Numbered from the stretch's first letter, positions 8,176-17,054 are shown. The stretch is 33,042 nt of DNA from a virus (IMGVR_UViG_3300036791_000637:1-33042); one strand, 5' to 3'. Notes: generated from the letters alone by a model not told the origin. A program made the numbers and translations.

Positions 8176-8666
8176 GAGTCACGACGCCAAGGTTGCAACG
8201 CCTTGTGCAGCGTGTTCTTTCCAATGCAGCAGCAAGGTCGGGGCGAACAACGCTGCAAGGGGTCACCACCAGTGCGGTGACCTTCATTACGCGGAGCGGC
8301 GGCTATAGATCATTCGGTATATCCGACGCCGATATCCTTATGGCCCTGCGCCATGTGGTGCAGGCGGAAGCCAAGTTTCAAATGGACAAGGGACTGCCGC
8401 AAGCGGTGTTCGGTCGGGTATTGCCGAGCGCGCCGGCCCCGCTTGTGCAGCTATTACGCCGGCTGCCATCCTGGATCACGCTTGGCGACGGGGCTTACGC
8501 CGAGCGGGTAGAAACACTAGGGGCATCGCCGCAAGATTGGGAAGCCTACGCCAACCTCAAGCTCAAGAAGGCCGCCGAGACCATGCGAGCGGCTGACGTA
8601 CCGCAGGACGTGGCGCGCTTGCTGGCGGTGCATGGATACGCTTCGCTGCGAGACATTTTGACCTAA
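8172..8666 (+). CDS. Hypothetical protein between DUF3102-like and SNF2 genes
   Basis: A 164-residue protein starting at an ATGA overlap (8172); GGAG lies upstream. The frame is open to 8133, but that part lies in the preceding gene. It is basic at the N-terminus and otherwise helical, with no recognised motif. Its stop overlaps the next start by one base (TAATG), so translation is probably coupled with the SNF2 helicase. Confidence 0.65.
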   Translation: MRVTTPRLQRLVQRVLSNAAARSGRTTLQGVTTSAVTFITRSGGYRSFGISDADILMALRHVVQAEAKFQMDKGLPQAVFGRVLPSAPAPLVQLLRRLPSWITLGDGAYAERVETLGASPQDWEAYANLKLKKAAETMRAADVPQDVARLLAVHGYASLRDILT

Positions 8667-10417
8667 TGCCAATTCTAAGCCCGCTGGCCGTTAAGCATTA
8701 TCTGGCCCGCCCGTTCAATGACTGGCGCATCTATTTCAAGTTGACCGACGCAAAGCTCGACGCCTTGGGCCGGCGCTACCAATTCGACCCGGCGCATTGG
8801 CGCAGGCTCAAGCGGCACCAGAAAATCATGGCGTGCATCGGCGCACGCACCGGGCGGTTCTGCTTTTGGGCCGACACCGGCACCGGCAAGACCTATCTCA
8901 CCATGATGCTGGCCAAGCACTTCGAGCGCGCCCAGGGTGTCAAGCGTATCCTGGTGCTGGTGCAGGGCCGCGCCAACAAGGACGAGTGGGAACGCGAGAT
9001 AGACAAGCATATGCCGGATTTGAGCCGGCTGATATTGAAAGGAAGTTCGGCGCAAAAATGGGCGGCGTTGGAGACCACCGACGCCTTGCTGGTGATCGAC
9101 TCGTTCGGCGGGTTCATCCGCTTGGTATCGGAGATGGTGCCACATAAGAAAAAGCGAAGGCTTAAACTTACCCGCAGACTCGTAACCAAGGCGCTCGCAA
9201 CATTCGATGGGTTGGTGCTGGACGAGAGCCAGAACGTCAAGGGCCACGGCTCACTCACGTTCCGCGCCTGCCGGCAAATATCCAAGCACGCGGCCAAGAT
9301 CGTATTCGCGCTGTCCGGTACGCCGCACGGGCAGGACCCGACCGACCTTTGGAGCCAGTTCTATCTCATCGATGCCGGTGAGACACTGGGGCAGACGCTG
9401 GGGCTATTCCGGTCGGTGTTCTTTACCGAGAAGCTGAATTACTTCGGCGGGTTCGAGTATACATTCCAGCAGTCCAAGATCGGCCTGCTCAAGGACATCA
9501 TGGCCAACCGTTCGATCACCATCGAGGCGGATGCCGCCGACCTGCCGCCGCTCTCGCATATCCGCAAATACGCCTGGCTGCCGGAGGACGCCGGCACCTA
9601 TTATCAGGCCGCGCTCACTACGCTGCGCGCCCGCAAGTCGGTGCGCGAGTTGGAGAATGCGGTGCTGCGTATGCGGCAAATCTCATCCGGGTTCATCGGT
9701 TACGAGGACGACGAAACAGGGGAAAAATGCAAGTTTGCATTTCCCGAGAACCCGAAGCAGGAGTTATTGCTGTCGATCCTGCAAAGCATCGATCCGGTTT
9801 ACAAGACGGTGGTGTTCTATGAGTTTACGTGGAGCGCGTTACGGATTGCCGAGGAGTTGGCGCGGCTGCGCATTCCGTTCGTGCATCTTTACGGCGGGAC
9901 CAAGGACACCGCGCTGCCGCTGCGCGAGTTCGACAATGGCCTGCCTCGGGTCATGCTTTTGCAAAACAAATTCGGGGCCGGGCTCAATCTGCAACGAGCT
10001 AAGTATGGAATTTTTTACGAGACTCCGTTATCGTCCATCGTCCGCAAGCAATGCCGGCGACGGTTCGAGCGGCAAGAGTCCGAGCACCAACGGGTTTTCC
10101 TTTATGACCTGCTGGTGCGCGGGACGTTGGACGAGAAATTCCTGGACGGCGTGTTGGCCGGCGAGGACCTGATGAAGAAAATCATCGCGGGGAAAATGGA
10201 TGTCGATGACTACCGAGGACGCCAAGGTGAAGCTAACGGAGGAAGAGAAGCGCCGGCTGAAAGAGCGCTGGTTCGAGCTTCCGCTGGAGATGCGCCGCGC
10301 CTATTGGGCCGAGACCGATTACGGCAAGCACCCGGATTACCTCTCCCCGGGCTTAATCAAACGGCTGCGGATACATCCCCCGAAACGGAGCTAGGGCCGC
10401 CGTGGGACCCCGCGTGA
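8666..10417 (+). CDS. SNF2-type superfamily 2 helicase
   Basis: A 583-residue predicted DNA translocase. The first RecA-like domain has Walker A ADTGTGKT at 69-76, the DESQ box at 186-189 and SGTPHG motif III at 217-222. The second domain has FYEFTWSALRIAEEL at about 384-398, KFGAGLNLQRA at about 435-445 and motif VI CRRRFERQ at about 463-470. Phage SNF2-type enzymes are usually linked to replication, recombination or DNA remodelling. The helicase fold ends near residue 510. The remaining 73 residues overlap the gene at 10200-10394 in another frame and have the Arg/Ala/Gly/Pro composition of an out-of-frame translation, so the true protein may be shorter or carry a low-complexity tail. Confidence 0.88.
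   Translation: MPILSPLAVKHYLARPFNDWRIYFKLTDAKLDALGRRYQFDPAHWRRLKRHQKIMACIGARTGRFCFWADTGTGKTYLTMMLAKHFERAQGVKRILVLVQGRANKDEWEREIDKHMPDLSRLILKGSSAQKWAALETTDALLVIDSFGGFIRLVSEMVPHKKKRRLKLTRRLVTKALATFDGLVLDESQNVKGHGSLTFRACRQISKHAAKIVFALSGTPHGQDPTDLWSQFYLIDAGETLGQTLGLFRSVFFTEKLNYFGGFEYTFQQSKIGLLKDIMANRSITIEADAADLPPLSHIRKYAWLPEDAGTYYQAALTTLRARKSVRELENAVLRMRQISSGFIGYEDDETGEKCKFAFPENPKQELLLSILQSIDPVYKTVVFYEFTWSALRIAEELARLRIPFVHLYGGTKDTALPLREFDNGLPRVMLLQNKFGAGLNLQRAKYGIFYETPLSSIVRKQCRRRFERQESEHQRVFLYDLLVRGTLDEKFLDGVLAGEDLMKKIIAGKMDVDDYRGRQGEANGGREAPAERALVRASAGDAPRLLGRDRLRQAPGLPLPGLNQTAADTSPETELGPPWDPA
10200..10394 (+). CDS. Small charged protein overlapping the SNF2 gene
   Basis: A 64-residue protein in a different frame from the end of the SNF2 helicase. 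Its composition is protein-like: a charged helix (KLTEEEKRRLKERWFELP), aromatics, and a C-terminal KRLRIHPPKR. This looks more natural than the SNF2 frame over the same bases, so I think this one is real. A second in-frame ATG lies at 10206. It is the last gene before the terminator at 10414-10447. Confidence 0.6.
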   Translation: MSMTTEDAKVKLTEEEKRRLKERWFELPLEMRRAYWAETDYGKHPDYLSPGLIKRLRIHPPKRS

Positions 10418-10447
10418 GGCTCAATAAGAGCCTCGCTGGCGCGTTTT
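10414..10447 (+). terminator. Intrinsic-type terminator ending the rightward helicase operon
   Basis: GAGGCTC (10416-10422) pairs with GAGCCTC (10428-10434) around an AATAA loop. A G-U and a G-C pair extend the stem to 9 bp, and TTTT follows seven bases later at 10444-10447. It lies between convergent operons. The short T-run at a distance makes it a moderate rather than strong terminator. The last SNF2-frame stop falls inside it. Confidence 0.5.
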
Positions 10448-10528: not shown

Positions 10529-10843
10529 TCAGGGTCTCCATACATCCAATTCGATCCGTTGCCGCCGCCCGCCGCCGCCTTGCAGCACCGCGCGGTAGCG
10601 CACCACGTCCCTGTTGGCTCCAACCCGGCCAATGGACAAGCATCTGCCGTATGAGCCGAATAGCTTGAGCGCCAGCCGATGCGCGAACCGCCGCCCCGCG
10701 TCGTCAATGGTGCGCACGCGGCCAGCCCGTATGCCGGCCATGCCGGGAGTTCGATAGAACGCGTCGGGCCGATTGCGATACGGATTGGTCGTTACCCAGG
10801 CGCTGCGCCGAGCGGGTTTCAATAGTCCGATATCACTTTGCAT
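10529..10843 (-). CDS. Hypothetical basic protein, last gene of the leftward operon
   Basis: A 104-residue Arg-rich protein starting at ATG 10843, overlapping the peptidase gene by 11 bases. Segments such as RTIDDAGRRFAHRLALKLFG and NRDVVRYRAVLQGGGG read as normal coding sequence. The open frame extends upstream to 10987, but that part overlaps the peptidase. A competing frame at 10465-10707 is less likely because it has no coupled start. No family recognised. Confidence 0.5.
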   Translation of the reverse strand: MQSDIGLLKPARRSAWVTTNPYRNRPDAFYRTPGMAGIRAGRVRTIDDAGRRFAHRLALKLFGSYGRCLSIGRVGANRDVVRYRAVLQGGGGRRQRIELDVWRP

Positions 10844-11315
10844 ACATCGCATCCAAAATTTGCATCGGCTTGAGCCGCTTGTGTTTATATAAGAGCTTCG
10901 CAACCCGGTCGATAGCGCCCCAGTTCTTATCAACGAGATGCCCCGCGCGGGTAGCGCACTGCTTCCAAACCACGCGCGCCTCGGCATCCTTGAGCCGGTT
11001 CTCCGCGAAGTCGTGCTGGATGCGGGTGAAGTCGCTGGTTGCCCCGTGCATTGTTAGTTCATCGCAAATGCCGCCCAGGTGCTGCTCCTCGGCGGCAATG
11101 CCCGCAAACCGCACTGTTGTGCGGTCCAGCAAATGCGCCTCCGAGTGGTCGATCCAGGTGGTGCCGCCGCCGCGCTTATGATTGCGGATGGTTACGCCAC
11201 CAACCGGCAGGCCCAACTCCAATGCGATGACGGCGTGGCCGGCCTCATGATAGGCGGTCTCGACCATCTCCCGCTTGGTGCGGCGGTAGCGCTTCGTTAG
11301 CTTCTTCCGTTTCAT
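10833..11315 (-). CDS. Stand-alone M41 (FtsH-type) metallopeptidase domain
   Basis: A 160-residue predicted zinc protease. AYHEAGHAVIALELGLPV (about 21-38) gives the HEXXH zinc site H23/E24/H27. RFAGIAAEEQHLGG (about 69-82) matches the conserved helix after the active site in FtsH, and GATSDF (91-96) supplies D95 at the position of FtsH's third zinc ligand. All catalytic residues are therefore present, but there is no AAA+ ATPase domain and no membrane segment, unlike FtsH (over 600 residues). It could process a specific small substrate rather than unfold proteins. It starts at 11315 with a one-base overlap with the zinc-ribbon gene, inside the amidoligase operon. The fold assignment is firm; the substrate is unknown. 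Confidence 0.8.
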   Translation of the reverse strand: MKRKKLTKRYRRTKREMVETAYHEAGHAVIALELGLPVGGVTIRNHKRGGGTTWIDHSEAHLLDRTTVRFAGIAAEEQHLGGICDELTMHGATSDFTRIQHDFAENRLKDAEARVVWKQCATRAGHLVDKNWGAIDRVAKLLYKHKRLKPMQILDAMYAK

Positions 11316-11650
11316 TAGTGCATTCCCTTCTTGCGAAGCATATCCGCGATCACCTTGTCGAGCAGGGCGTCCGCATTGGCGGTTGGCCCGAGCGTCATGA
11401 TCACCGCGAAATTGCACCCGCTCTTGACCAGATCGGTAATGTGACCGCAACCCTTGCTGCCCTCGACCTCGTCGCAGCGGCCTTGCGTGGTCCAGTGGTT
11501 CGGTTCGCCGGAGAGCCGCGCGCCGCAGCCGGCGCAGGTCCACTTTTGATAGATGAGCGAGCCGACCCGGCGATGCCCCTGCGCCTGCTCGAACGCTTCC
11601 GTAAACGGGAAGTCGTCGTACTTGATCTTAGGCCGTTTCTTAGAAGTCAC
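11315..11650 (-). CDS. Zinc-ribbon hypothetical protein
   Basis: A 111-residue protein. CAGC (39-42) with C59 and C68/H70 forms a probable zinc-binding site. The N-terminus is charged and the C-terminus helical (ADALLDKVIADMLRKK). GTG 11650 is chosen because a strong GGAGAGGA ribosome binding site precedes it; the frame is open to 11704. The gene overlaps the upstream 56-residue gene by 11 bases and ends at the peptidase start. It could be an adaptor or regulator of the operon; no specific family recognised. Confidence 0.65.
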   Translation of the reverse strand: MTSKKRPKIKYDDFPFTEAFEQAQGHRRVGSLIYQKWTCAGCGARLSGEPNHWTTQGRCDEVEGSKGCGHITDLVKSGCNFAVIMTLGPTANADALLDKVIADMLRKKGMH

Positions 11651-11810
11651 TGGCGTCCTCTCCTGCGTGTAGCTCGCGGTGCTCGCGCGCAAGCTGGTCG
11701 GCAAGGTCCTGTAGCAACCCGGCGTCGTCGTTCTCCGGCGACCGCAGATTGGCCTGCTCGCGCATCAGCCGCACGATCTCCGCAACTGACATAATCATTT
11801 GGCGTTCCAT
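11640..11810 (-). CDS. Small hypothetical protein in the amidoligase operon
   Basis: A 56-residue acidic protein starting MERQMIMSVAEIVRLMREQA, predicted helical. Its ATG at 11810 follows the stop of the GGCT gene with no gap, and its end overlaps the zinc-ribbon gene. A small, acidic, helical protein made next to an amidoligase and a GGCT could be a modification substrate, but this is only a hypothesis. Confidence 0.6.
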   Translation of the reverse strand: MERQMIMSVAEIVRLMREQANLRSPENDDAGLLQDLADQLAREHRELHAGEDASDF

Positions 11811-12698
11811 TTACCGACTCCTGTTGTTAAAGTCATCATCGAACAGATTGCGGCGAGTCCATTTGCCGGGCGGGGCAAGGTTGGGGTCGCGGGCTTCCAG
11901 CTCTGCCTCGCGCTCGCGCTCGCGCCTAGCCGACTCGCGCCGATAGTCGTCAATGGTCATGCGCTTGAACGTCGAGCCGTTGGCCGGCTTCGGCGCGGTC
12001 TTGATCGGTTGCTCCGCCTCCTCGGCATAGTCGAGCAGCGTTACCTCGGGGATCGGATGATAGAGCGCGGCCTCGGCTTGCTGCTTGAGCCTATCGTCGG
12101 TGCGTTGCTCCATGACCTCGCGCGGCATCGCCACCAGCTTGGCCTGGTTGGTCGAGTTGCGCTGCCGCCGCCGCCGCGCGATGGTTTGTTCGGACGGGGT
12201 CTTGGACTCGTAGGAATGCTTGATGGCCTCCCGCAGGTAGGACAAGTCCAACTCAAAATGCCGGTAGCCATCCGCGATGATCGATGCGTACCAAGCCGAT
12301 GGCGGCTGCACGCCCTCGCGGTCCACCATCAAATAGATGAGCGCCTTGTGCTCCGTCCCTTTGATGTCAATCTCATACTTGCCATAGAAAGTCGGGTAGC
12401 CCTCGTAACGGTCCAGGGCCTCCTCGTCCTTTTCATCGATATCCCACAAGCCAACCGGCACCTGTCCATCGACATCGTGCTGTAAATCGGCAACGCCGCG
12501 AAACACCAGCTTGCACTCGGTTAGGATAATGGAGCCGACCGGCTTGGCATTGGGGCAACGCTCCGCCATTTTCTTGCGGTGCAGGTTGGACCCGTAGGCA
12601 ACATAAAGCTTCCGACCGGGAGCCGGCGCGGCGAGATTGAGCCCGCCGACCTTTACGGTCTTAGCCTTGTGCTTATGCTTCTTCTTAGCCACAGTCAT
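11811..12698 (-). CDS. Gamma-glutamylcyclotransferase-like protein with C-terminal extension
   Basis: A 295-residue protein. The GGCT/AIG2-like fold occupies about residues 28-165, with the YGSNL nucleotide-loop-like motif at 35-39 and the putative catalytic Glu at E99 in LDRYEG. GGCT enzymes release 5-oxoproline from gamma-glutamyl amines or peptides. The last 130 residues are a charged, arginine-rich helical extension (about 170-295) not found in the basic fold. The family is known to sit next to amidoligases in bacteria and phages, as it does here. It starts at ATG 12698 with a 14-base overlap with the 80-residue gene upstream and abuts the next gene. The product is probably cytoplasmic; its substrate is unknown. 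Confidence 0.82.
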   Translation of the reverse strand: MTVAKKKHKHKAKTVKVGGLNLAAPAPGRKLYVAYGSNLHRKKMAERCPNAKPVGSIILTECKLVFRGVADLQHDVDGQVPVGLWDIDEKDEEALDRYEGYPTFYGKYEIDIKGTEHKALIYLMVDREGVQPPSAWYASIIADGYRHFELDLSYLREAIKHSYESKTPSEQTIARRRRQRNSTNQAKLVAMPREVMEQRTDDRLKQQAEAALYHPIPEVTLLDYAEEAEQPIKTAPKPANGSTFKRMTIDDYRRESARREREREAELEARDPNLAPPGKWTRRNLFDDDFNNRSR

Positions 12699-12927
12699 TC
12701 TCCACTTGTATCATGCCTGTGCGTATTAAGCCACGCACAAATGCATCCGGCGACCTTGTATCAATCCGCGCGTCCCGCTTCCAAAGGCGTGCTCGCAGGG
12801 CCATCTCGCGCATGAATTCTCCGCGCGTCTTGGCGTGTTGGTAGGAGGTAGCGCGGAGTTGGCGAACCAAGTCATCCGCGTTCCGAGCGTCGAACCGCCC
12901 GCCGTCCAGAGTCTTGTACCGTGTCAT
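12685..12927 (-). CDS. Small amidoligase-operon protein
   Basis: An 80-residue protein starting MTRYKTLDGGRFDARNADDL and continuing with a helical core (VRQLRATSYQHAKTRGEFM). I have the impression that similar small proteins (YKTLDG...DLVRQLR) accompany amidoligases elsewhere, but I cannot verify this. ATG 12927 is preferred over 12939 because GGAG lies six bases upstream of it. The longer form would overlap the amidoligase stop by one base. It is a candidate partner or substrate of the amidoligase. Confidence 0.65.
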   Translation of the reverse strand: MTRYKTLDGGRFDARNADDLVRQLRATSYQHAKTRGEFMREMALRARLWKRDARIDTRSPDAFVRGLIRTGMIQVENDCG

Positions 12928-12938
12928 TTCATTCTCCA

Positions 12939-14162
12939 TTAGAACGGGGTCGGTTCGTTCGGGTTAGTAGCCGGGATGCCGGGAAGCGGGTCGATACCGG
13001 GCCGCGCGAAAGGCGGCGGGGCAGGCCGCGCAATGTTGGCTGCAATCGGAGCCGCGAGTTGTTGGACCCGCTCTGCCCAGAACCGCTTTTCCTCGTCGGT
13101 CATTCCAAGCCTATCGGCCAATTGCTCCCAGGACTCCGGCTTTTGCGGGATATTGGCCGCCGCCGCAACCATCTGCGGAGTAACCGCCATCCCGAAATAA
13201 CGCAGGATGCGCCGCCGCCGTCCTGAGTAGTGCGAAAGGGTTGCGCCCTCGCGCACTTGTTCGGTACGCAACGTGATGCCCATCTTGCGCGCCATGCCGG
13301 GGACCGTGATAGCCGACCAGCCGGTAGCCGCAAGCAGTTCGGCCTCGGTTGCGCCTTCGGGGCGCGTCAATAACTCGTAGACCCTGTAAGTCTTGGTGCC
13401 GGGGCGAACCGCCGCCGTCCGTTGCACATGTTGAACCTGCGCCGCCGATATCGGATAATCGGCCTCGTTCTCCGCCATGCGGATGTAGCGCTGGCACAAC
13501 GCGATCCAGTTCTTGATCTTGGCGAATTCGATGGTGCCGCCATGATGCCGGAATTCCACCGTGCCTTTATGCACAACGGGCTCAAAGTTGATTTTATGGA
13601 ACTTGGCCGCCGATGCGCGCGATGCCTCCAAGAATACCCGCCCGATGGCGGATGCATCTTGCGCATGCGCTAACCGCTCGACGTTGAGATTGGCAACCGA
13701 GCAAGCGTAACCGTTGCCGCCGCGTACGCCGCGCCGCGAGCGCGCCATTGCCAAGTCAAGCAAGGACTCGGTCTGCGCGTAGAACAACGCCAGCCGGCGC
13801 AAGGCGTGAAACGGCACCGGCGTTGGCCGCCGCACATCGATATGGACGTGCAAGCCGCAAGAGGGGTGAATGGTAAATTCCATCTGCTCAAGAACTTGGC
13901 AGACCTTTTCGATCTCGTTCAAGCCCTCTTGCCCGAGCAGGATCGGGCCGCGTATTTCTACGCCCTCGCCCATGCGCCCGCCGGAGATAGAGTTATCCGT
14001 GGTAAGGCCCCACTTGGTGGTATCGTGCTCGCCATACGATTGGACGACCGCTTGATGCCGCAAGCCGGCGCGATTGAGCGCCTGCGCAAGCGTATGGCGA
14101 TTGCCCGACGTTTGGATGCACTCAATCTCTATACCGTAAGTGCGGGTAAAGTCGAAAGCCAC
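12939..14162 (-). CDS. Amidoligase (Amidoligase_2 family) fused to a DUF3489-like winged helix
   Basis: A 407-residue protein. The N-terminal 230 residues match the glutamine-synthetase-like amidoligase family: GIEIEC (10-15), GEGVEIRGPIL (66-76), CGLHVHID (102-109) and TVEFRHHGGT (201-210), which supply the predicted metal- and ATP-binding acidic and His residues. Such enzymes are predicted to join a carboxylate to an amine using ATP. Residues about 258-305 (VYELLTRPEGATEAELLAAT, then GW and TVPGM) resemble DUF3489, a DNA-binding-type winged helix. The C-terminus is Pro/Ala-rich. GTG 14162 has a strong GGGAGG site five bases upstream. This first gene of the leftward operon is served by the promoter at 14192-14220. 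The substrate is unknown. Confidence 0.85.
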   Translation of the reverse strand: MAFDFTRTYGIEIECIQTSGNRHTLAQALNRAGLRHQAVVQSYGEHDTTKWGLTTDNSISGGRMGEGVEIRGPILLGQEGLNEIEKVCQVLEQMEFTIHPSCGLHVHIDVRRPTPVPFHALRRLALFYAQTESLLDLAMARSRRGVRGGNGYACSVANLNVERLAHAQDASAIGRVFLEASRASAAKFHKINFEPVVHKGTVEFRHHGGTIEFAKIKNWIALCQRYIRMAENEADYPISAAQVQHVQRTAAVRPGTKTYRVYELLTRPEGATEAELLAATGWSAITVPGMARKMGITLRTEQVREGATLSHYSGRRRRILRYFGMAVTPQMVAAAANIPQKPESWEQLADRLGMTDEEKRFWAERVQQLAAPIAANIARPAPPPFARPGIDPLPGIPATNPNEPTPF

Positions 14163-14191
14163 AATGGCCTCCCTTTCGTTTCGATACCGGC

Positions 14192-14220
14192 AACATAAGG
14201 GAGGGCCGCTAGATTGTCAA
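14192..14220 (-). promoter_or_regulatory. Promoter of the leftward amidoligase operon
   Basis: On the minus strand, TTGACA (14220-14215) and TATGTT (14197-14192) are separated by exactly 17 bases. The -10 box lies 30 bases upstream of the GTG of the amidoligase gene, with its strong ribosome binding site in between. The -35 box is perfect, the -10 matches four of six. Confidence 0.65.
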
Positions 14221-14242
14221 TACCTTTTTGAGCTTTAATACC

Positions 14243-14258
14243 CCTTTGAAATCAAAGG
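14243..14258. promoter_or_regulatory. Palindromic operator midway between divergent promoters
   Basis: CCTTTGAAATCAAAGG: CCTTTGA and its reverse complement TCAAAGG around AA. The centre (14250) lies 33 bases from one -35 box and 32 from the other, in an AT-rich stretch. A dimeric regulator binding here could act on both operons. The surrounding ATTGTCAA/TTGACAAT pair (14213-14220, 14280-14287) makes the whole region an extended inverted repeat. Confidence 0.55.
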
Positions 14259-14279
14259 CTTATTTATTTACATATCCCC

Positions 14280-14308
14280 TTGACAATAGGAGAGGGGCAC
14301 GCTATGTA
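14280..14308 (+). promoter_or_regulatory. Promoter of the rightward tRNA/small-gene operon
   Basis: TTGACA (14280-14285), 17 bases, then TATGTA (14303-14308). The geometry mirrors the leftward promoter, although the -10 matches consensus at only three positions. It would drive the tRNA-Arg gene and the small-gene block that follows. Confidence 0.55.
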
Positions 14309-14354
14309 TTGGGCCAAGGTTAAGGAAAGCCTACCGAATTACCCGTTAACGTGA

Positions 14355-14582
14355 ATGCCCGACCGAAACCAGGCGGGCGGAAAGGAGAGCCTGAATAAGG
14401 CCGGTGAGATTGGCGAGGCTTTTGGCAACGCGCGAGCGGACGCCCCGCCGTTTTTGGCACCCGGCTTTTTTCAGGCTCTTGAGCCTAATGAAAAGGAAGT
14501 GACGTGGGTCCTCGCCGCAACTCCAAAGGTAATGCGGAGAATTCGAGCCCGGATCGTGCCCGGGGCTTCCGACAGCTTTTAA
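14355..14582 (+). CDS. Doubtful small open frame before the tRNA
   Basis: A 75-codon frame between the rightward promoter and the tRNA gene. It has no ribosome binding site, mixed composition and no family resemblance; the last part (VTWVLAATPKVMRRIRARIV) could be coding on its own from GTG. I list it because the 14309-14584 stretch otherwise holds no gene. It also contains an AGGCTC/GAGCCT inverted repeat (14473-14486). Confidence 0.25.
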   Translation: MPDRNQAGGKESLNKAGEIGEAFGNARADAPPFLAPGFFQALEPNEKEVTWVLAATPKVMRRIRARIVPGASDSF

Positions 14583-14584
14583 TT

Positions 14585-14660
14585 GCCCTCGTAGCTCAAT
14601 GGACAGAGCATCCGGCTTCGAACCGGACGGTTGAGAGTTCGAGTCCCTCCGAGGGCTCCA
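14585..14660 (+). tRNA. tRNA-Arg (anticodon UCG)
   Basis: A complete 76-base cloverleaf with encoded CCA. The acceptor stem is GCCCTCG/CGAGGGC (perfect). The D arm is GCTC/GAGC with AATGGACA loop. The anticodon arm TCCGG/CCGGA has loop CTTCGAA, so the anticodon is UCG (reads CGA and probably other CGN). The variable loop is 5 bases. The T arm is GAGAG/CCCTC with loop TTCGAGT and one A-C mismatch. The discriminator base is U73, unusual for an arginine tRNA, which usually has A or G. It lies downstream of the rightward promoter and may supply Arg codons the host reads poorly. Confidence 0.93.
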
Positions 14661-14711
14661 ATAACGAAAGGTCCATACGGCGCAAGAAACCGGAACGGCC
14701 AGTCCCGCGAG

Positions 14712-14831
14712 ATGCCGAAATATCGGGGTCGCCCCGACGGATCGAAAACCATCTGGTGCGTAGCGTGGCAGACTACTGCGAGTCGAACGACCACTGTTGC
14801 AGTATGGGTTCGCAGTTTGAATAGGAGTTGA
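14712..14831 (+). CDS. Possible small hypothetical protein
   Basis: A 39-residue frame starting MPKYRGRPDGSKTIWCVAWQ and ending in a Thr/Arg-rich tail, between the tRNA and the next gene. The start looks natural but the ribosome binding site is poor and the protein is very short. The TGA stop is immediately followed by the AAA before the next ATG at 14834. Confidence 0.35.
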   Translation: MPKYRGRPDGSKTIWCVAWQTTASRTTTVAVWVRSLNRS

Positions 14832-14833
14832 AA

Positions 14834-14980
14834 ATGCAAACGAAAAAAGTAAAGGCCAAAAAGCCGCAACACAACGCCCACGTTGTGGCCTATCACGCCC
14901 ACATGTTGAGCGCGGCTATGGCCGAGGCCAATGCGGTTTATTATCCGACCTATACCTCGAAGGAGATTGTACGGTGGTAA
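14834..14980 (+). CDS. Small basic hypothetical protein
   Basis: A 48-residue protein with a Lys-rich N-terminus (MQTKKVKAKKPQHNAHVV) and a helical, tyrosine-containing remainder. A strong AGGAG six bases before the ATG supports the start. Its 3' end overlaps the next gene by 7 bases. No family recognised; the basic start suggests nucleic-acid binding. Confidence 0.6.
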   Translation: MQTKKVKAKKPQHNAHVVAYHAHMLSAAMAEANAVYYPTYTSKEIVRW

Positions 14981-15159
14981 GCATCGTCCAACGGTTAGAG
15001 GGTTGTCCGAGCGGCGCAACGCGCGATGCGTTGCTGCTTAACGGGCATACGTCTGAGGAGATCGAGGCTGCGCTCGACGCCGGCCTGATCCGCAGCGAGA
15101 TTTACGATTACGCCAAGCCGCGAAACTTTGAGGTGGAGTGGCTTTTTGTTGGCGAATGA
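14974..15159 (+). CDS. Small protein with possible winged-helix fold
   Basis: A 61-residue protein starting with GTG 14974, with AAGGAG eight bases upstream inside the previous gene. The pattern RDALLLNGHTSEEIEAALDA, followed by a short hairpin-like end (EVEWLFVGE), suggests a small helix-turn-helix. This is judged by eye only. The promoter at 15163-15191 follows its stop. Confidence 0.6.
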   Translation: MVSIVQRLEGCPSGATRDALLLNGHTSEEIEAALDAGLIRSEIYDYAKPRNFEVEWLFVGE

Positions 15160-15162
15160 GAC

Positions 15163-15191
15163 TTGACTTGCACATACGGGCATCGTATGTG
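15163..15191 (+). promoter_or_regulatory. Promoter with an embedded palindrome
   Basis: TTGACT (15163-15168), 17 bases, then TATGTG (15186-15191). The inverted repeat CACATACG (15171-15178) / CGTATGTG (15184-15191), with loop GGCAT, covers the spacer and the -10 box. A protein dimer bound there would block polymerase. Spacing and the TATGT start of the -10 match the promoters at 14192-14308. Confidence 0.5.
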
Positions 15192-15249
15192 GGAGTCATA
15201 GAAAGCGAGGCCATCCCGGCCAAGCAAACCGACAAGATAGGAGGATTAC

Positions 15250-15513
15250 ATGCTTGTCGAATTCTACCGCGCTACCCCGCCCGTTACCCCGAATGAGTTC
15301 GGAGAGGACGACGGCCAGCAGACTGAGCAGGCCCAGGTCCAGCATCCGATTGCCATCAACCCGACGACCGTTTCGGCGGTCTTCGAGTCGAGCCAAGACG
15401 CCAACGTCACGATTGTGCGGCTGGCCGATGGACGCGGCTTCATGATCCAGGGCGCGTACGCCCAGGTGATGGAGGTCCTGCGGGCGAACGGCGGCGTTAC
15501 CCCGGCCAACTAA
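15250..15513 (+). CDS. Hypothetical protein
   Basis: An 87-residue protein with a strong AGGAGG five bases before the ATG. An acidic, Gln-rich N-terminal part (NEFGEDDGQQTEQAQ) precedes a compact segment of strand-rich sequence (VTIVRLADGRGFMIQGAYAQ). I see no known domain. The long structured leader at 15536-15641 begins 22 bases after its stop. Confidence 0.7.
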   Translation: MLVEFYRATPPVTPNEFGEDDGQQTEQAQVQHPIAINPTTVSAVFESSQDANVTIVRLADGRGFMIQGAYAQVMEVLRANGGVTPAN

Positions 15514-15535
15514 TCCCGGCCTCACCAAGAATTCC

Positions 15536-15641
15536 CCGGAGGGCTACGGCCCTCCGGTATCGGCGGACCCTTCAGGGCGGCTTCGGCAACCCCACCCCGA
15601 AGCTATTGGCCCTCCTGCCTTGGAGGGTCCACCGATACCGG
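15536..15641 (+). ncRNA. Structured leader RNA with competing stems
   Basis: Between two genes, the transcript can form several stems. P0 is CCGGAGGGC/GCCCTCCGG closed by TACG (15536-15557). P1 is an 18-bp long-range helix with one mismatch, pairing 15554-15571 with 15624-15641. P2 is GCTTCGG/CCGAAGC (15580-15586/15597-15603). P3 is CCCTCC/GGAGGG (15610-15615/15622-15627). P1 shares bases with both P0 and P3, so alternative folds exist. The 3' arm of P1 ends four bases before the GGAG ribosome binding site of the next gene. It resembles a leader that controls translation or elongation. I cannot match it to a known class. Confidence 0.6.
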
Positions 15642-15655
15642 AACGGAGAATGACG

Positions 15656-16138
15656 ATGCCTACGCAGACCGAAATGTTTGAGCCCCGTCAGTTTACGGAC
15701 GGCGAGGCCGCCAAGGCTTTCATGCTTGCCGGCAACGCCCGCGTTACTCTCAAGTCGTTGGCTACGGGCACTCGTTTTACTTATCAAATCCGCCCGCCCA
15801 AGGCGCGGGACGGCGAGGCCCCGACCATCTGGTTCGTTGGTTTGCTAACCGGGACCGACAATGAGTCGTCCTACACGTATATGGGCTGCCTCAATGAGCC
15901 ACGCGGCTTTTGGCAGACCGCCAAATCTCCCATTTCACCGGATGCCAAGTCGGTTAAGGCTTTCGACTGGTGCTGGCAGGCTATCCGGCATGGCCGGCTT
16001 CCGGTCGGGGTCGAGGTCTGGCACGAGGGCCGCTGCGGTCGGTGCGGGCGCACGCTCACGGTTCCAGAGTCAATCGCATCCGGGTTTGGTCCCGAGTGCA
16101 TCAACCACATTCACGGCGGGAGCGCCCAACATGGCTAA
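15656..16138 (+). CDS. DUF6011-type zinc-finger protein
   Basis: A 160-residue protein. The C-terminal part (HEGRCGRCGRTLTVPESIA and GPEC, about 123-148) matches the DUF6011 zinc-binding pattern with C127, C130 and C148 plus a nearby His. The N-terminal 110 residues include strand-rich segments and aromatic-rich ends (FDWCWQAI). DUF6011 proteins are common in phages and bacteria; function unknown. The start at 15656 has GGAG seven bases upstream, directly after the structured leader; the alternative ATG at 15650 has no room for that site. Confidence 0.75.
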   Translation: MPTQTEMFEPRQFTDGEAAKAFMLAGNARVTLKSLATGTRFTYQIRPPKARDGEAPTIWFVGLLTGTDNESSYTYMGCLNEPRGFWQTAKSPISPDAKSVKAFDWCWQAIRHGRLPVGVEVWHEGRCGRCGRTLTVPESIASGFGPECINHIHGGSAQHG

Positions 16139-16307: not shown

Positions 16308-16590
16308 TATCACAATGCGCGACCCCCGACTGCTCAAGATCGGTCGCGTCTATCCATACTACGCGGTGCGGTCTTGGTTCATCCGAGCCAAGGAGCACTA
16401 TTTGGCCTACCGCTACACGCCCGAGGGTCGGCACTGCTGGTACTGCGGCGAGCGCAACTGGTTCGTTGACGACTGCGGCTACTCATACACGCACGGCGCC
16501 GGCAAGGCCGACGCCCCGACCTGCCGTAAGTGCTTTTACGGTTGGGCCGGCAAATGGCAGGCGCATTGGTTTGGGGTAGGTGAGCGATGA
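16300..16590 (+). CDS. Zinc-ribbon hypothetical protein
   Basis: A 96-residue Trp/Tyr-rich protein with two CxxC knuckles, CWYC (46-49) and CRKC (75-78), separated by a loop with aromatic and His residues. This is a zinc ribbon or small HNH-like site, although no His-Asn nuclease motif is seen between the knuckles. GGGAGG six bases upstream supports ATG 16300; the open frame extends to 16210. It couples to the second GGCT gene by ATGA. Confidence 0.65.
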   Translation: MANITMRDPRLLKIGRVYPYYAVRSWFIRAKEHYLAYRYTPEGRHCWYCGERNWFVDDCGYSYTHGAGKADAPTCRKCFYGWAGKWQAHWFGVGER

Positions 16591-17054
16591 AAATCTTCGT
16601 ATACGGCACGCTCAAGCAGGGCTTCGGGTTGCACCGGATGCTTGAGGGCTCCCGCTACCTTGGCCTCGCACACACCACCGCGCCGTTCGCGTTGTTGGAC
16701 AGTGGCTTCCCGGTCTTAACCCCGATGGGCTGCGGCAACGTCGTGGTCGAGGGCGAGGTCTACGACGTACCCGAGGAACTGGTTCCGCGCCTGGACCGCA
16801 TCGAGTCTGCCTACAACCGCGAGCAGCACGAGGTTGCCTACGCGGAGGACAACGGCACCGGCAGCAACACCGACGTTGTTTGGATGTACGTGGGCAAGCC
16901 GAGCCGATGGCATTACAATAACCGGCTAGGCATCCAATGGTACGACCCCGACACCGGCGTATTCTGCTTTGGCCGGGATGAGGAACGCAGACGCGAAGCT
17001 GATCACGTCGATGGCTACGACCGCGACGACCTGGGCGAGAGTCCCGACTACTGA
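16587..17054 (+). CDS. Second gamma-glutamylcyclotransferase-like protein
   Basis: A 155-residue protein of the GGCT/YtfP-like family: MKIFVYGTLKQGFGLHRML has the YGTLK loop at 6-10, and LDRIESAYNREQ carries the predicted catalytic Glu (E73). It is closer to the classic compact YtfP-type form than the one at 11811-12698, which shares the fold but only short stretches of sequence. The acidic C-terminus (about 125-155) is extra. It starts at an ATGA overlap. Its presence in the operon opposite to the amidoligase suggests a second step or a different substrate in the same chemistry. The catalytic role is inferred from the motifs. Confidence 0.82.
   Translation: MKIFVYGTLKQGFGLHRMLEGSRYLGLAHTTAPFALLDSGFPVLTPMGCGNVVVEGEVYDVPEELVPRLDRIESAYNREQHEVAYAEDNGTGSNTDVVWMYVGKPSRWHYNNRLGIQWYDPDTGVFCFGRDEERRREADHVDGYDRDDLGESPDY

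Follow-up and report, generated by a model that had tools for sequence, protein, structure and literature searches.

GS-type ligases convert carboxylates to amides, and enzymes of the gamma-glutamyl cyclotransferase (GGCT) family open gamma-glutamyl amides as 5-oxoproline, so a gene pair encoding both implies that a gamma-glutamyl-type amide is formed and removed. For more than 10 years, annotations of phage amidoligases have carried a guess that they act on cell walls, a proposal that is said to originate with Iyer et al. 2009. Published accounts propose that phage amidoligase modules modify cell-wall peptides against superinfection (PMC5498523, PMC11945000, PMC10580990), and no experimental test of a cell-wall target was found in the literature searched. 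In the 'peptidoglycan modification' cassette of phiEco32, RIO-1, LUZ24 and PSA-HP1 (PMC5498523, PMC11945000, PMC3890496), a PF12224 amidoligase and a GGCT are encoded together among the phage early genes, and amidoligase-GGCT pairs have also been reported in Arthrobacter AL cluster phages (PMC5513430). A GGCT lies within 0-2 kb of the amidoligase in the latter phages as well as in Geobacillus GR1, Bacillus 031MP004 and gut Heliusvirales-type phages, in which order and spacing vary and in which, unlike in the locus described here, a recognisable homologue of the 80-aa protein p80 and the winged-helix domain DUF3489 are absent in those inspected. Pairs of amidoligase and GGCT in phages are already known (PMC5513430, PMC3890496, PMC5498523); the new part is the partnership with p80 and the winged-helix fusion.

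The window, a viral record of 33,042 bases that is a genome fragment and in which 27 ORFs were scanned, differs from the peptidoglycan modification cassette in having p80 and a winged helix fused to the ligase in place of the extra enzymes, and no ATP-grasp enzyme, glutamine amidotransferase or second COOH-NH2 ligase is encoded in its own cassette or among the 27 ORFs of this fragment. ORF calls bear out the tightly packed minus-strand genes of the original prediction, seven in number between 10529 and 14162, with an 11-base gap between the amidoligase and p80 genes, abutting GGCT and p56 genes, and overlaps of 1-14 bases elsewhere. The cassette runs leftward between two rightward flanks, as had been claimed, and six of its seven genes resemble the polymerase and helicase genes in codon-position GC, with a weaker likeness for the 104-aa gene. 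The expected domains were recovered by Pfam (Amidoligase_2, E 1.4e-28; DUF3489, 2e-9; GGACT, 1.5e-7; Peptidase_M41, 4e-9), and the 80-, 56-, 111- and 104-aa proteins matched no Pfam family. Of the two proposed boundaries, the cassette's own promoter holds up but the terminator does not: the 7-bp hairpin at 10416-10434 (GAGGCTC-TTATT-GAGCCTC) has no T tract, and a terminator scan was negative. A SNF2-type helicase gene (8666..10417, plus strand) converges on the cassette and serves as a landmark outside the system; names of replication genes beyond the Pfam scan were read from the sequence by eye. A tRNA-Arg gene (TCG anticodon, 14585-14660) separates the cassette from the early genes that run rightward. 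The reading that we favour, tentatively, is that amidoligase, p80 and GGCT would form one unit, comprising a ligase with its partner, reversal of a gamma-glutamyl amide and autoregulation, with the peptidase, zinc-ribbon and 56-aa genes as cargo.

The first gene of the operon (12939..14162, minus strand) encodes an amidoligase with a GS/YbdK-like fold over residues ~6-225. The ATP and metal residues, on which the original prediction had made its claim depend, are kept in alignments: E12, E14, E69, H105, H107, N192, E203 and R205 (ExE, E, HxH, N, ExR) occupy columns that are invariant or nearly so among 12 and 50 relatives. The structural model (pLDDT 83.6) has its best PDB matches in YbdK (E 1e-5) and type III GS (E 1e-3), followed by archaeal GS, gamma-GCS and gamma-glutamyl-methylamide synthetase. 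The protein is a member of PF12224 and, by sequence and model, a GS-like COOH-NH2 ligase of predicted activity. In one contig the amidoligase sequence is divided between two ORFs (L208:1356-2288), which could reflect a decayed gene or a sequencing error. No PF12224 domain was detected in four relatives identified by their DNA polymerase (L002-L005), which are fragment contigs, in a search in which no control genome gave a signal.

Fused to the C-terminus of this ligase is a DUF3489 winged helix (residues 253-306; 13245..13406, minus strand), assigned by Pfam and accompanied by a separate weak PDB match to a MarR-type regulator. DUF3489 is present in 9 of 13 members of the amidoligase lineage; searches of bacterial genomes did not turn up this winged-helix form. 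A sigma-70-type promoter by consensus match (TTGACA-17-TATGTT; 14192..14220, minus strand) lies 30 bases ahead of the amidoligase gene and is the sole match of this kind in the window. Two inverted repeats surround it (14168..14258, no strand assigned) and are candidate operators: CCTTTGA/TCAAAGG at 14243-14258, and CCTCCCTT/AAGGGAGG within 14168-14204, which extends from the -10 region as far as the ribosome site. The winged helix together with these repeats suggests autoregulation, and on the basis of domain content and repeats the ligase probably regulates its own operon, with the fused domain repressing the ligase's own promoter in a BirA-like manner. As in BirA-type enzyme-repressors, a ligase is joined to a winged helix, encoded first in the operon and preceded by inverted repeats at the promoter; unlike in BirA, the ligase fold is unrelated, the HTH is C-terminal and DNA binding is predicted from sequence.

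The same fusion could instead indicate DNA-directed chemistry, in which the amidoligase would work at DNA, on DNA or on proteins bound to it, for instance attaching an amino acid to bases of phage DNA or to the host's RNA polymerase or nucleoid proteins. Weak HTH matches in amidoligases of other phages (HTH_18, 0.0065; HTH_23, 0.04) and the small HTH proteins that fill the p80 slot in relatives point the same way. However, autoregulation explains the fused HTH equally well, and no base-hypermodification genes occur among the 27 scanned ORFs of this fragmentary record, and we regard DNA-directed chemistry as improbable. The slot proteins in question are XRE-type HTH proteins of 68-79 aa that follow the amidoligase and precede the GGCT in L023, L024, L029, L035, L039-L044 and L087; many amidoligase-GGCT loci, among them a branch of the window's phage lineage, have such a protein there. 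They were ruled out as p80 homologues by hhalign profile comparison (probability 0.3%).

The cassette GGCT (11811..12698, minus strand; alternative GTG start at 12692) carries a long C-terminal extension and has the hallmarks of the GGCT/AIG2 family, namely a YGSN start and an LD..EG catalytic glutamate, the latter kept in 61 of 62 relatives. Its recurrence was assessed by profile searches in 91 amidoligase loci, comprising 80 IMG/VR viral contigs, which are fragments, and 11 phage or plasmid records, a set from which very near relatives of the window may be missing. A GGCT is found at 48 of these loci; the proposed amidoligase-GGCT pairing is correct. A second GGCT of a different subfamily is encoded outside the cassette (16587..17054, plus strand) and is also present in the amidoligase loci of seven relatives (L018, L019, L021, L028, L032, L033 and L049).

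The association of the amidoligase with p80 (12685..12927, minus strand) had been suspected from this locus and proved tighter than a reader of a single sequence could know. In the same profile searches p80 directly adjoins the amidoligase in 47 of 91 loci, and all 49 HMM matches to p80 within the 91 loci lie beside an amidoligase; among bacterial amidoligase loci, 39 of 80 have an adjoining p80. Searches in the reverse direction gave the same picture: a p80-first search recovered 26 viral loci, and in all 25 that could be tested the amidoligase ends 8-168 nt upstream, the 26th being cut by a contig end. Whole genomes contain a single p80 each, always at the amidoligase (5/5). Among 251 Bacteroidaceae genomes, seven encode the amidoligase and one of these seven p80, while no p80 was found in the remaining 244, which lack the amidoligase. 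A tblastn search of 50,697 phage records likewise returned amidoligase-linked matches only. The converse fails, as many amidoligases have no p80. Two loci carry a second, divergent p80 directly upstream of the amidoligase, besides the usual downstream copy (L045:347-601 and L048:9407-9661). A small protein in a fixed position that is never found without its enzyme offers a concrete handle on amidoligase chemistry.

p80 appears to be an undescribed family. None of 38 members match Pfam or PHROGs, two members tested against NCBIfam models gave no match, and no relative was found among solved structures. The literature searched contains no description of p80, although Iyer et al. 2009, which lay outside that search, could mention it. 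The structural model (pLDDT 86.6) predicts a compact beta-beta-alpha-alpha-alpha-beta fold, which a few unnamed phage proteins match in their predicted structures. Matches to Protein G (E 0.2) and PDB fold matches, all with E above 1, were taken as chance.

Given the strict linkage between a GS-superfamily ligase and a neighbouring small-protein gene, a parallel with pup and pafA presents itself, and p80 could be a dedicated substrate that the amidoligase modifies and from which GGCT or other enzymes reverse the modification. The properties of p80 make this an unlikely explanation, although it is our second choice for its role. Pup-like proteins are disordered and end in a conserved Glu or Gln, whereas p80 is compact by prediction and its last residue varies among 15 residue types; its fold gave no match to either ubiquitin or Pup, and no proteasome or Dop partner was seen. 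Lysines are also not conserved, and the acidic position with the highest conservation (87% D/E) is a glycine in the window copy. The missing acid, the variable C-terminus and the lack of a conserved lysine argue against a simple tag, and, given the compact fold as well, a Pup-like peptide tag is unlikely. Our preferred reading is that p80 would be a stoichiometric, bound subunit that steers or restrains the ligase, a role suggested by its dependence on the enzyme and by the frequent overlap of the two genes.

Close counterparts of this arrangement occur in Bacteroidota (Porphyromonas phages, Bacteroides, Phocaeicola, Hymenobacter), where a member of the same amidoligase family is directly followed by a p80 homologue and the genes overlap or abut in many cases. 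Unlike the window, these units mostly have no GGCT, and their amidoligases carry no winged helix at the C-terminus but are extended at the N-terminus by a stretch that includes an HTH-like segment. p80 and GGCT are each found without the other, which suggests either that the enzyme does not always depend on p80 or that p80 serves some branches only.

That such stand-alone two-gene units with overlapping genes reside on Bacteroidota chromosomes and prophages would suit a toxin-antitoxin-like or superinfection-exclusion pair, in which the amidoligase would inhibit growth or entry, p80 would restrain it and GGCT would be an optional detoxifier. In two Bacteroidota loci the amidoligase-p80 unit is, moreover, followed by hicA/hicB (L007:5123-5757, annotated; L119:9097-9780, identified by eye). 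However, the enzyme gene comes first and the small gene second, unlike in most antitoxin-first pairs, and PADLOC returned no match. The placement of the window's cassette among replication genes and the negative search for the winged-helix form in bacterial genomes are more in line with a lytic phage than with an addiction module, and we consider a pair of this kind rather improbable. A broader possibility, which we judge less probable than the unit proposed above but more so than these alternatives, is that amidoligase and p80 constitute an undescribed two-component conjugation system of phages and bacterial chromosomes, chiefly of Bacteroidota, with p80 as carrier, specificity subunit or substrate and GGCT as an eraser in some phage versions. 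If p80 were indeed a carrier or substrate, the pair would represent a conjugation pathway distinct from those of ubiquitin and Pup.

Under the favoured reading of a ligase with a bound p80 partner, the ligase would activate a carboxylate with ATP, most likely the gamma-carboxylate of a glutamyl residue, and join it to an amine. The cassette GGCT, together with the second GGCT, may then split or recycle the gamma-glutamyl amide to 5-oxoproline and the free amine. Following the published proposals, the likeliest target in infected cells would be peptide of the cell wall or precursors of it, and such modification would exclude other phages or allow amines to be reused.

The other genes of the cassette have a different distribution. 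A stand-alone M41-like zinc peptidase of 160 aa (10833..11315, minus strand) matches only the peptidase part of FtsH and has no AAA+ ATPase domain; its zinc site looks intact, as H23 and H27 of the HEAGH motif and D95 of GATSD align with the FtsH ligands (HEXXH and a third Asp). It is flanked by genes for a zinc-ribbon-like protein of 111 aa (11315..11650, minus strand) and, beyond it, an acidic protein of 56 aa (11640..11810, minus strand), for both of which no relatives were found. A B12-dependent ribonucleotide reductase assignment for the zinc-ribbon protein was rejected with a score far below the cut-off. Where single-protein scans (P0001, P0003, P0005, P0006) of viral and genome contigs returned no relatives, family alignments were needed. 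The 104-aa basic protein encoded last in the cassette (10529..10843, minus strand) has homologues in the profile searches at three of the 91 loci, at the same end of the cassette (L018, L019 and L022); sequence conservation sets in near residue 36, and the start of the gene is therefore uncertain.

The compact single operon and the intact-looking zinc site had led to the proposal that all seven genes form one modification and maturation system that includes the peptidase. Sequence searches found no homologue of the peptidase, zinc-ribbon or 56-aa protein at any of the 91 loci. The peptidase was also missing from 19 whole relative records, in a search that had no positive control, and no M41-type HEXXH motif was found close to 80 bacterial amidoligases by motif search. 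Approached from the other side, an FtsH-seeded pattern search for M41 yielded 19 viral loci, mostly FtsH-like with a few stand-alone proteins, none of them beside an amidoligase, GGCT or p80. The original prediction had staked itself on conserved neighbourhoods and an intact active site; its amidoligase half stands, but its peptidase half fails. Four unrelated viral contigs (L105, L109, L112 and L113) encode stand-alone M41-like HEXXH proteins of ~150-230 aa, with no amidoligase in the flanking sequence present.

Close relatives of the window show what occupies the same position. In L017, L018, L019 and L022 the cassette is located as in the window, facing the same SNF2 helicase gene in convergent orientation and close to the same DnaB-type helicase gene, but the slot from GGCT to the cassette end differs in content: L018, L019 and L022 have small unknown proteins there and L017 an FkbM-type methyltransferase, with the cargo different in each relative. 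From the recurrence counts and these other genes in the relatives' slot, we take amidoligase, p80, GGCT and the basic protein to be the old components and the peptidase group to be interchangeable cargo. A seven-part system is thus very improbable, and the peptidase is probably just a passenger. In keeping with the favoured amidoligase-p80-GGCT unit, the peptidase, zinc-ribbon and 56-aa genes would be replaceable cargo carried on the same transcript, and the comparison separates the cassette genes worth testing from passengers. In L017, the SNF2-type helicase gene (13570-15966) is apparently interrupted by an intein at the ATP-binding loop (CVGAETLIETDRGPIRIDEL ... HGLCHHN-S).
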